A DNA stretch of 22,545 nucleotides from a virus. Made by a program: the position numbers and the translations under genes. Positions 6,436 to 14,646 of this stretch are shown one piece after another. The stretch spans positions 1 to 22,545 of IMG/VR virus record IMGVR_UViG_3300025913_000523; one strand, 5' to 3'. Position 1 is the stretch's first letter. Each line of letters opens with the position of its first letter. The notes under the pieces are model-generated. The model did not search any database. It saw only the letters and a list, made by a program, of their open reading frames with translations, and had not been told where the DNA came from.

Positions 6436-6591
6436 ATGAAAAAGGTTTTATTGTTCGTTGCTGTTTGCATGCTGTCAGGCTGTCAGGCAGTTATTGGCGG
6501 ACAGCAGTACAAGAAAGGTCCGCAAATCTACACCACTCCAGGCAGTCCAGGCGGCGTCAGCTTCTCAAAGTATGAGGTGACGCCACTATGA
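6436..6591 (+). CDS. Small phage-encoded lipoprotein (51 aa)
   Basis: The N-terminus MKKVLLFVAVCMLSGC is a Sec signal with lipobox LSG-C (cleavage before Cys16), leaving a 36-aa mature lipoprotein. AGGAAAGG lies upstream of the ATG at 6436. The stop overlaps the next start as ATGA, so it is co-translated with a secreted protein. It is not nested in a larger frame and has no Rz partner, so I do not call it Rz1. A superinfection-exclusion or receptor-masking role, as for phage T5 Llp, is one possibility. Confidence 0.8.
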   Translation: MKKVLLFVAVCMLSGCQAVIGGQQYKKGPQIYTTPGSPGGVSFSKYEVTPL

Positions 6592-7079
6592 AACGCCTGA
6601 TAATACCTGGCCTGTGCTTCGCAGCGGCTAGCCTTTGCCATGCAGAGGCTAGCATCAAGGTCTCGCAGGGTGACGGTGGCGTCCTGTACAGCCGCATCGA
6701 GTCAACGCCATTGACTGCTGACGAAATAAAGTCAACCCGCATGATGGCAACCGCCGAGGTAACGGCATCAACAACGAACATCACCGGCACAGTTAACCAG
6801 CCCGTGGTCGTCAAGAGCTGGCACACCGTGTGTTTTAGCACGATGTTCACCACCGAGGCAGACTACAGCTTCGTGCTGGACATAGGCGGACAGCAGACTG
6901 TGGTAAGCGAGCATATCGTCATTCCAAACAAGCAGCGCACCTGCGTGACCAAGGAGCTATACAAGCAGGTCACATTTGCTAGCCCCGGCAGTTATCGATA
7001 CTCAGCCAGCAGCATTGGCACTACTCAAATGGCCGGCAAGAAAGAGACTCATTCGGATGCATATATTTTTGTGAGATAG
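6588..7079 (+). CDS. Secreted periplasmic protein, paralogue A
   Basis: The 163 aa start with MKRLIIPGLCFAAASLCHAE, a Sec signal peptide (AxA-like site near residue 19-21). The mature domain is beta-rich with two cysteines (C82 in HTVCFSTMF, C119 in KQRTCVTKELY) that can form a disulfide in the periplasm. It ends IFVR. Similar order, spacing, cysteines and ending are found in the protein at 7285, so the two are paralogues. Start is coupled to the lipoprotein stop. Function is unknown. Confidence 0.8.
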   Translation: MKRLIIPGLCFAAASLCHAEASIKVSQGDGGVLYSRIESTPLTADEIKSTRMMATAEVTASTTNITGTVNQPVVVKSWHTVCFSTMFTTEADYSFVLDIGGQQTVVSEHIVIPNKQRTCVTKELYKQVTFASPGSYRYSASSIGTTQMAGKKETHSDAYIFVR

Positions 7080-7081
7080 GA

Positions 7082-7288
7082 ATGATCAGGTATTTAGGCC
7101 ACACAATACATGATGCGCAGCATGTGGAAACAAAGGAAACATGGTGGGAGCTTTCGTATTGGTACACTTCTGATAAGTCACCACAGGTTGCTGGAAGAAG
7201 ACATTCTGGATATTTTAAATCCAGAGAAGAAGCCGAGAAAAAACACAATCAAAATTTAGTCAATGGATTATTAAAGGACGAAGAATGA
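7082..7288 (+). CDS. Hypothetical 68-aa protein between the two secreted paralogues
   Basis: Aromatic- and His-rich N-terminus (YLGHTIHDAQHV, TWWELSYWY), then a charged helix (KSREEAEKKHNQNLVNGLL). No signal peptide. It starts 2 nt after paralogue A with a poorly placed GGA, and its stop overlaps the start of paralogue B (ATGA at 7285). The overlaps make it a real operon member; the function is not recognisable. Confidence 0.6.
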   Translation: MIRYLGHTIHDAQHVETKETWWELSYWYTSDKSPQVAGRRHSGYFKSREEAEKKHNQNLVNGLLKDEE

Positions 7289-7794
7289 AACGATACAAAC
7301 TTGCGATTCTGTTGTCATGTGCGGCAGCAATAACAACAAACTCAATGGCCAAGCCAGTCGTCAATGTATCGCCAGACACCAAGGGTGGCATATCCAGAAC
7401 CGTCACCGAATCATGGAAACTGTCTGACGACGAAAAAAAAAATACTCTGACGATGATGAGCAGTATATCAGCGACAGCGATAGCCCCGACGAAAACGATC
7501 CGGAAGAAGGAATGGACGGCGCTGACTAGCCAGCACAAGTCCTGTTTCTATAACACCTTTGGAACGACCGTTGAGGGCAGGTATCTCATAAAGTTTACTG
7601 TCGCAGGCAAGGAAGTGAACGCCTATGACAAAGTCCCCGTGGGTGGCGGACAGGCGTACTGCGTGACAAGATACCTTGAGATATGGGTCAAGGGCGAACG
7701 CCCCGGAGACTCGTCGTCAGTGGCCTCTACGCACGTCGAAATGGACGGCAATGCGACTGACAATGAAGGACACGGAACTATTACGGTTAGATAG
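7285..7794 (+). CDS. Secreted periplasmic protein, paralogue B
   Basis: The 169 aa start with MKRYKLAILLSCAAAITTNSM and a cleavage site near A22. The mature part aligns with paralogue A: KGGISRTVTESWKLSDDE against GGVLYSRIESTPLTADE, then C87 in HKSCFYNTFGTT against C82, then C126 in QAYCVTRYLE against C119, ending ITVR against IFVR. The pair therefore share a disulfide-bonded beta domain. It is the last gene before the non-coding interval, and a 17-bp repeat begins right after its stop. Confidence 0.8.
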   Translation: MKRYKLAILLSCAAAITTNSMAKPVVNVSPDTKGGISRTVTESWKLSDDEKKNTLTMMSSISATAIAPTKTIRKKEWTALTSQHKSCFYNTFGTTVEGRYLIKFTVAGKEVNAYDKVPVGGGQAYCVTRYLEIWVKGERPGDSSSVASTHVEMDGNATDNEGHGTITVR

Positions 7795-7904
7795 GTTTAT
7801 GGCCGACGATACTGATAAACAGTCGAAACTAGATTGAGCGGCGCCGCCCCTCGAAATTGACTGCGGGAAAATAGGCCACTATTTATAGTTTATGGCCGAC
7901 GATA
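7795..7904 (+). repeat. 17-bp direct repeat pair at the start of the non-coding interval
   Basis: GTTTATGGCCGACGATA occurs at 7795-7811 and 7888-7904 (93 bp apart). In the first copy GTTTAT also pairs with ATAAAC (7815-7820). GCGGCGCCGC (7838-7847) is a perfect palindrome between them. Confidence 0.85.
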
Positions 7905-7968
7905 ATCCTTGGCGTATCCTGTACCCATTCGTTGAGATAATGGGGGGATGACAATAGGCCACCATTTA
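7870..7968 (+). repeat. 16-bp near-identical repeat pair interleaved with the first
   Basis: AATAGGCCACTATTTA (7870-7885) and AATAGGCCACCATTTA (7953-7968), one mismatch, 83 bp apart. The first copy forms a 6-bp hairpin AAATAG-GCCA-CTATTT (7869-7884). TTGACT (7857-7862) with 17 bp to TATTTA (7880-7885) is a weak promoter candidate for the RNA. Confidence 0.7.
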
Positions 7969-7969
7969 C

Positions 7970-8250
7970 GGCAATCGCGGCGTGGACAGTGACACGCTTA
8001 TTCCCCAACGCCATAAGGTGGCCTTGGAAACAAGGTGAGGGGTGGGCCGGTAGGTAGCCACAAGCGCCCTTGGACGATACGACTACCATAAAGCAGGTGC
8101 AATTCCTGCCGATTGCCAACTTTTTAGGGGGGAAGGACTACGCGGTGGCAAGCTCCGAAGGTAAACCCGGATTATGTCGAGGGTCGCTAACCTCGTCCAC
8201 TTCGGTAATCCCTTCGAGTGGGTCAGGCCACGGACTCACACACTTCCCCC
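7970..8250 (+). ncRNA. Candidate large structured RNA (two nested multi-helix domains)
   Basis: Domain 1 is closed by GGCAATCG (7970-7977)/CGATTGCC (8110-8117). It encloses GCGTG/CACGC (7980-7997), TTAT/ATAA (7998-8016), CCTTG-GAAA-CAAGG (8022-8035, a GNRA tetraloop), GGTAG/CTACC (8049-8087) around CAAG/CTTG, and GCAGG-TGCAATT-CCTGC (8093-8109), a T-loop-like arm stacked on the closing helix. CCCC (8003-8006) could form a pseudoknot with GGGG (8039-8042). Domain 2 is closed by GGGGGAAG (8128-8135)/CTTCCCCC (8243-8250), then GTGGC/GCCAC (8145-8231), with hairpins CGAGG/CCTCG (8178-8195) and CCACT/AGTGG (8197-8221). No coding frame fits. No known family was recognised; it is either an ornate phage RNA or a leader of the gene at 8268. 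Confidence 0.6.
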
Positions 8251-8267
8251 ACCCTTATAGGTGAAAT

Positions 8268-8744
8268 ATGAAACTTGAAGATCAAGTGGTAAGTCTAAAT
8301 TTAGCCAAGCGACTAAAGGAACTTAAATGTTCGCAGGCTAGTATTTTTTACTGGATAAGGTCTGAAACCGCAGATCCCAATATTGATGCATTTGGCTTGC
8401 CCTATGTAACGCAAATTTGGCAGGAGCGTGACAAGTTTAAAGAAATTTATTCTGCATATAATCCAGCAGAATTGTTCGACATGCTTCCTGCAAGTCTTGA
8501 CATAAAGGAAAACGAACCGTTCAACCACTTCTATCTGCACGTTGACAAACGCCATGCAAAAAACATCCAGTACATTGCAAACTACGTTGGCGACAGCGCA
8601 CGTTATGAAGATGATGCCAGACCTTTGATGGTAAACACTCTTTTTAGGCCCGGATCATATTCAGAAAATCTGGCCGAAGCCCTTGGAGAGCTTCTTGTGA
8701 GAATCATCGAAAAAGGAATTTGCCATGACAAACTGCAAAGATAA
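8268..8744 (+). CDS. Conserved phage hypothetical protein
   Basis: 158 aa. The SLNLAKRLKELKCSQASIFYW opening, the YNPAELFDMLPASL middle and the LAEALGELLVRIIEKGI ending follow a pattern I know from many phage hypothetical proteins, which have no established function. AGGTG lies 4 nt before the ATG and can pair with CACC at 8250-8253, next to the end of the structured RNA, so translation may be controlled by it. The 3' end overlaps the next gene by 20 nt. Confidence 0.75.
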   Translation: MKLEDQVVSLNLAKRLKELKCSQASIFYWIRSETADPNIDAFGLPYVTQIWQERDKFKEIYSAYNPAELFDMLPASLDIKENEPFNHFYLHVDKRHAKNIQYIANYVGDSARYEDDARPLMVNTLFRPGSYSENLAEALGELLVRIIEKGICHDKLQR

Positions 8745-13965: not shown

Positions 13966-14646
13966 CTAGTCGGCTTTTAACAGGATTATCTTGAGATAAG
14001 CACTGTTTGTCTGTGCATTGGTTCCAAGTGATGGAGCCTGTAGCACAACATTAGCGTTACTGGTATTTGCCAGCTCCAGATAATCACCTGCGTCAAGATG
14101 AACAAACACGTCTGCCACGATCTCATTGGCTTTCTGCTCTGGACTCAGGGTCATGTTCGCAAAGGTTGATCCGGGAACAATCACACCATTTTTGAACAGA
14201 GACAATGTCCACACAGGAAGAGGCGAGGAAATCGGGTTCAGAGATCCACACAGCCCGGTATAAATGTCATACCAGCCTGCACGATTTACTGTGATCTTGC
14301 CGCTTGTTCCTGCCTGTGAAACATCGATATTTGCCGTTGAGAAAATGCTGTTTTCCAACAACACAATACCACCAGCCATGTTTGCACCGGGTGATGCTGG
14401 CAAGTCCTGAGTCAGTGTTGAGAAGACTTCAGAAAATTCCGGCTCCGGACACTTGCATTCAGGATGTTCGCCGCCGTTGCAGTTTACGCAGTTACCGGGA
14501 ATGCCCTGTGGACCCTGAATTCCCTGTGGGCCTTGCAGACCATCCTGACCCCTTGGCCCCTGAACGCCTTGCGGACCCTGTACACCCTGCATGGATTTAT
14601 CACACGGGTCACAGTGACACTTTTTATCTTCATGATCATACGCCAT
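13966..14646 (-). CDS. Collagen-like virion/fibre protein with C1q-type jelly-roll C-terminus
   Basis: 226 aa. Residues about 21-52 are Gly-X-Y triplets ([20 protein letters not shown], then [11 protein letters not shown]) that can trimerise as a collagen-like stalk. CHCDPC before and [14 protein letters not shown] after are Cys-rich knots. Residues about 75-226 are a beta-rich domain ([28 protein letters not shown]) like the C1q/TNF-type heads of bacterial collagen-like proteins. It is probably a surface-binding appendage. GGAG 7 nt upstream of the ATG; a terminator follows. Confidence 0.85.

Follow-up and report, generated by a model that had tools for sequence, protein, structure and literature searches.

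The window analysed here is a viral DNA stretch of 22,545 nucleotides, and it raises the question of what occupies the 473-nt gap between the gene ending at 7794 and the gene starting at 8268. The initial annotation had read this gap (7795-8267) as one structured RNA of 470 nt with two domains. The elements that it listed were found: both 8-bp helices are exact and span 148 nt and 123 nt as claimed, and the GAAA tetraloop, the T-loop-like arm stacked on the closing helix and the 5ʹ repeats (two copies of GTTTATGGCCGACGATA, 17/17 identical, plus a 19-nt pair at 89%) are all present. The evidence for structure from this single sequence was nevertheless weak. The 473 nt folded 1.4 standard deviations better than shuffled sequences, 8 of 100 shuffles being as good, and a simple count predicts that an interval of this length holds one or two perfect 8-bp pairings by chance alone. 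It is because of comparative evidence, and not of single-sequence folding, that we accept the structure as real.

The comparison with other phages showed that the interval holds four small structured RNAs in tandem, A1, A2, B and C, each separate from the next and with AU-rich spacers between them (Table 1). A single two-domain RNA was the wrong unit, as other phages carry A, B and C independently of one another and in a different arrangement, and the 5ʹ repeats turned out to be two copies of a separate small class, A. No promoter or terminator above chance was detected at the RNA row. Two open frames overlap it, 7883-8119 on the minus strand (78 codons) and 8070-8264 on the plus strand (64 codons), both without signs of coding.

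Table 1. Coordinates of the RNA cassettes and of their parts in the window.
Feature	Position	Strand	Basis or remark
Spacer GTTTAT	7795-7800	+	Precedes A1; same spacer before A and many B units
Cassette A1: P1 GGCC/GGCC, GACGATA facing GAAAATA, variable inner stem, tail ACTA	7801-7877	+	Class A
Cassette A2: P1 GGCC/GGCC, GACGATA facing GACAATA, inner stem ATCC/GGAT	7894-7960	+	Class A
Cassette B: tRNA-like RNA with variable insert	7970-8117	+	Covariance model and covariation
B, acceptor-like stem, 5ʹ strand GGCAATCG	7970-7977	+	Complementarity in relatives chosen without using the stem
B, 2-nt linker CG, matching tRNA positions 8-9	7978-7979	+	CG 96, CA 11, CT 2, TG 1 of 110
B, D-arm-like hairpin GCGTG-GACAGTGA-CACGC	7980-7997	+	Stem covaries
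B, insert, replacing the anticodon arm	7998-8092	+	Close relatives only in L007, L093 and L203
B, insert helices 8003-8006/8039-8042, 8009-8012/8017-8020, 8021-8026/8031-8036	8003-8042	+	GAAA loop 8027-8030 caps the last helix
B, insert H-type pseudoknot: 8044-8047/8066-8069 crossed by 8053-8057/8083-8087	8044-8087	+	Compensatory changes
B, T-arm-like hairpin GCAGG-TGCAATT-CCTGC	8093-8109	+	Recovered downstream when the 5ʹ hairpin alone was used for selection
B, acceptor-like stem, 3ʹ strand CGATTGCC	8110-8117	+	As for 7970-7977
Cassette C: 8-bp closing stem (GGGGGAAG 8128-8135 with CTTCCCCC 8243-8250), nested hairpins, then ACC 8251-8253	8128-8250	+	Single sequence

A 22-mer at the 3ʹ edge of the first 8-bp helix recurs in three other viral contigs, and the closing stem is kept in all three. 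Pattern scans together with a counting script gave 110 non-redundant B units in 104 viral loci (cited by L numbers); L001/L006, the window's own or a near-identical record, were excluded from the script-made counts. Each unit consists, in order, of an 8-bp closing stem, a 2-nt linker, a 5-bp hairpin, an insert, an A residue, a 5-bp T-arm and the 3ʹ strand of the closing stem. The loop of the 5ʹ hairpin was GACAGTGA in 95 units, GACAGCGA in 14 and GACAGGGA in 1 (consensus GACAGYGA), and the insert ranged from 29 to 254 nt with a median of 80. The A residue directly precedes the T-arm stem in 108/110 units, the T-arm loop is UGCAAUU in 99/110 (rarely UGUAAUU, UGCGAUU, UUCAAUU, UUCGACU or UUCGAAU, the last two being the canonical T-loops TTCGACT and TTCGAAT), and no gap separates the T-arm from the closing-stem 3ʹ strand. 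The first pair of the closing stem was formed in 96 of the 110 units and the other pairs in 107-110; six units have CCA right after the eighth position and may be of the 7/5 form. Locus L009, one of the three contigs with the 22-mer, has a second unit with the same two loops and a wholly different closing stem, GTTAGCAG/CTGCTAAC.

Since the counting script demands at least 6 of 8 closing pairs, the unbiased tests of the stem were the selections made by hairpins only. Among 70 places picked by the two hairpins, the stem was 8/8 complementary at the predicted offset in 56 and at twelve shifted offsets in none. Of 69 places picked by the 5ʹ hairpin string alone, 49 had a perfect downstream partner of the eight upstream bases, nearly always directly after a T-arm. 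Across the 110 units, the 17 strongest covarying column pairs were exactly the 17 variable predicted pairs, the eighteenth being an invariant G-C, and in a separate alignment of 40 sequences without the window's relatives 16 of 18 pairs were altered on both sides, with none of 500 shuffles as good. When 30 carrier records were searched with the B covariance model, 29 yielded between one and three units apiece. Because several of these carriers had supplied training sequences, the window is the cleaner test, and its B unit was found at 77.3 bits (E 5e-19) by a covariance model built without its relatives. There was no reading frame shared across the B units, only 31/110 being stop-free in some frame. 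Thus B is a proven structured RNA. The initial annotation had proposed to look for compensatory changes among homologues, and the covariation in the B family supplied them; its suggestion of a structured phage RNA outside Rfam was likewise borne out, as the fold has comparative support and Rfam 15 gave no family match, just a chance HOTAIR match appearing at E 10.

B was shown to have the topology of a tRNA, with an insert that is hypervariable and itself structured where the anticodon region would be. The T-arm has 5 bp and a tRNA-type 7-nt loop and abuts the acceptor stem, and the equivalents of U54, C56 and A58 are nearly invariant; the position 55 equivalent is G, not U. CCA in register was present in 15/110 units, in comparison to a background of 1%, and an anticodon arm after the D-arm in 0/110, in comparison to 0.6 expected by chance. 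Canonical phage tRNAs and these cassettes have in common the cluster position, the T-arm, in part the NCCA end and the same spacers; B, however, is missed by ARAGORN and the Rfam tRNA model, lacks the anticodon arm and has another D-arm loop. The tRNA topology and tRNA-cluster location, and the UGCAA T-loops of odd tRNAs in the same large phages, could also point to highly divergent tRNAs that still translate with an enlarged anticodon domain, comparable to allo-tRNAs and tRNA-Sec. We consider this very unlikely, as the anticodon arm is absent at its tRNA place, inserts reach 254 nt and the loop GACAGYGA has no D-loop GG. The 110 units have 70 distinct acceptor stems and therefore no fixed synthetase identity there; with a stem too variable for one synthetase and no anticodon arm, a role as translation adaptor is unlikely.

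Transfer-messenger RNA has tRNA-like ends and a long insert where the anticodon arm would be, and B likewise carries its insert in place of that arm. The B insert is, however, too short and not conserved, and neither Rfam models nor the tRNA/tmRNA search found a tmRNA in the window. The 8-bp acceptor stem, the irregular tRNA-like units in rows and the soil sources are also features of tRNA-Sec, allo-tRNAs and the polycistrons of irregular tRNAs described from soil metatranscriptomes (Mukai et al. 2017, reviewed in PMC7609411). As far as the review describes them, and the comparison is by description only, those RNAs keep the anticodon arm, which B lacks; of the published observations, only the polycistrons might overlap with the B family.

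Of 77 inserts compared, 62 had no relative and 15 formed five small groups. The insert type of the window is common to L007, L093 and L203, and among these four 18 pairs were altered on both sides, frame included, 10 of them inside the insert. The latter include the GAAA-capped stem, which was rebuilt in different letters (5/6 pairs altered on both sides among relatives), and the pseudoknot, with changes of GGTAG/CTACC to GGTGC/GCACC in L203 and of GGGC/GCCC to GAGC/GCTC. A search with the insert core only matched just the window's own contig, L007 and L093. In L093 this insert type is combined with different frame stems, so the frame evolves separately from the insert. Inserts taken alone folded only slightly better than shuffles (mean z -0.53). 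The structured, modular inserts, with one type on different frame stems (window, L007, L093 and L203), might also suit a regulatory scaffold, in which the insert binds a metabolite or an mRNA of host or phage, with the tRNA-like frame doing no more than stabilising it, as in an engineered tRNA scaffold. We regard such a role as unlikely, because conservation is too low for a common ligand and no antisense match of the inserts to the carrier's own locus was worth noting (mean longest match 7.95 vs 7.43 for shuffled inserts).

The carriers range from phages of ~33-40 kb, whose large terminase shares 43% identity with its counterpart in Pseudoalteromonas and Vibrio phages, up to a 184-kb T4-like phage. 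Successive RNA units in them are separated by a spacer resembling (N)CCA-GTTTAT. Some family members lie inside phage tRNA clusters (L219, L179, L204, L032, L043 and L212; the window is not among them): in L219 the order is tRNA-Pro, 6 nt, B, 9 nt, tRNA-Met, and in L179 a tRNA-Gln is flanked by two B units. A tRNA neighbours an RNA unit in L032, L043, L204, L210, L212 and L224. Of the tRNAs within 500 bp of units, 33 were on the same strand and 1 on the opposite strand, and a recognised tRNA lay within 100 nt of only a minority of B units (11/110). In the window record no tRNA was found with the RF00005 model or ARAGORN.

The initial annotation had also considered a leader of the gene at 8268, and a cis-acting leader or riboswitch would fit the position of cassette C, which ends beside the ribosome-binding site and whose CACC (8250-8253) can pair with GGTG (8261-8264). 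For the family this is refuted: the proteins downstream of 80 B units fall into 72 unrelated groups, some units lie between tRNAs, and B precedes in L007 the same gene that it follows in the window (7285-7794, 68% identical protein). Given these unrelated downstream genes and the two positions relative to the same gene, B is a cassette that moves, not a leader; the idea could hold for C alone and seems to us barely credible otherwise. Cassette order and number vary between related phages and the spacers are shared, as would also be expected of selfish or recombination cassettes in which repeated spacers shuffle RNA units without benefit to the phage. The two near-invariant loops and strict covariation indicate, however, selection on the RNA fold, and we find this explanation quite improbable.

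The reading that we prefer, with a probability of about one half, is that the B units are trans-acting phage RNAs matured like tRNAs, in which the insert would be an effector on a tRNA-like frame, perhaps serving as a decoy. The row would be transcribed together with the neighbouring genes and cut into units by tRNA-processing enzymes: RNase P would generate the 5ʹ end, and the 3ʹ end would undergo tRNA-type maturation and receive CCA. We infer this because these enzymes recognise the stem, the T-arm and, where present, NCCA. As CCA is not encoded in most B units, the host would need to add it. The GACAGYGA and UGCAAUU loops, both invariant or nearly so, may form a tRNA-like elbow, so that the frame would supply processing and stability and the insert would be the working part. 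The mature RNAs would then work in trans and most likely engage a host factor, with tRNA-directed defences or tRNA-binding proteins as the favoured targets and the RNAs as decoys. Phage tRNAs have been proposed as decoys or supplements against tRNA-cutting defences (PMC13096335), and the fixed frame with a fast-changing insert suggests an arms race; the decoy role is favoured for these two reasons. Even if the RNAs act in trans, their role as decoys for tRNA-targeting defences is a guess drawn from an analogy, with the odds against it. More broadly, and only tentatively, the frame might be a general delivery format of phages, treated as a tRNA in cutting, protection and recognition while accepting interchangeable effector RNA domains that are unrelated to one another.

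The nearest known oddities to B are RNAC and RNAD of phage T4 (species 1 and 2), small stable RNAs of the tRNA cluster with unknown function (PMC3014915, PMC9697503). Like some B members they are small RNA genes located in a phage tRNA cluster; the final part of RNAC is a tRNA T-arm (CCGGG-TTCGAAT-CCCGG), an element that B also has, and ACCA plus an AU-rich spacer come after RNAD, a pattern also seen after cassettes here. However, no GACAGYGA hairpin was seen in them and the B model had no match in T4. GOLLD and ROOL are structured phage RNAs, often near tRNA islands and also of unknown function (PMC12286853). The likeness to them suggested earlier did not hold, as neither sequence nor structure models matched, even at E 10; they are much larger, differ in structure and lack the tRNA-like frame, and the common ground is the neighbourhood. 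If phages do use the general delivery format suggested above, the cassettes would be an RNA counter-defence arsenal located in tRNA clusters, and RNAC and RNAD may represent a further form of it.

Class A is a second covarying RNA class, with 49 units having at least 3 pairs in P1. Its P1 of 4-5 bp covaries (GGCC/GGCC, GGGC/GCCC, GCCC/GGGC, GGAC/GTCC, GGCT/AGCC and GGCCT/AGGCC), a GACGATA loop lies opposite GAAAATA, the variable inner stem is paired 4/4 in 51% of units, in comparison to 10% with shuffled partners, and 32/49 units have an NCCA end. In the window A2 is followed by ACCA (7961-7964) and then TTTAC. A hammerhead-like string in A1 (CTGAT..CGAAAC) was rejected, as it is missing from A2 and has no Rfam match. 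Cassette C, known from the window sequence only, folded with a z of -2.36 and had no relatives among the fetched loci.

We also noticed a further RNA class after unit A in L009 (259-346), L136 (minus strand) and L140, with a closing stem GGGGAGAG/CTCTTCCCC (in L136 GGGGTGAG/CTCATCCC) around invariant CAAAGTAAGCGTACGATGAAATG and an inner stem altered on both sides. Upstream of the A units in L144, L167 and L136 lie still other closed cassettes; their closing stems measure ~10-11 bp and enclose T-loop-like hairpins. On the minus strand of L143 (3519-3629), a unit closed by the stem GGCAATCG/CGATTGTC contains GTGGG-TTCGAAT-CCCAC as a canonical T-arm; it lacks the GACAGYGA hairpin, and no anticodon arm is evident.

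The B family is a large and widespread phage RNA family, apparently undescribed. Viral contigs gave about 76 matches in 2.9 million, a rate that predicts one or so in cultured phages, and the lack there of a convincing match to the B or A consensus therefore says little. In 257 Gb of bacterial genomes there were 5 pattern matches, none with the full architecture, and the B model had no match in 398 genomes of one phylum, a weak test without a positive control. Because standard tRNA and Rfam searches miss the B family, the RNA gene content of phages is undercounted. More than 100 members with a proven fold, two invariant loops and a constant frame around a variable insert make two questions testable, namely what reads the frame and what the insert targets.

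In the tRNA clusters of L239 and L240 (184-kb and 225-kb phages) we observed many NCCA-ended units between tRNAs that were missed by ARAGORN; some of these units are otherwise tRNA-like but have UGCAAC or UGCAAU as the T-loop. In the window, 6588-7079 and 7285-7794 encode small proteins that appear to carry signal peptides and that match nothing in PHROGs, each 68% identical to a neighbour of the L007 B unit, and 13966-14646 (minus strand) encodes a protein with collagen-like GxxGxxG repeats beside tail-fibre-like genes.
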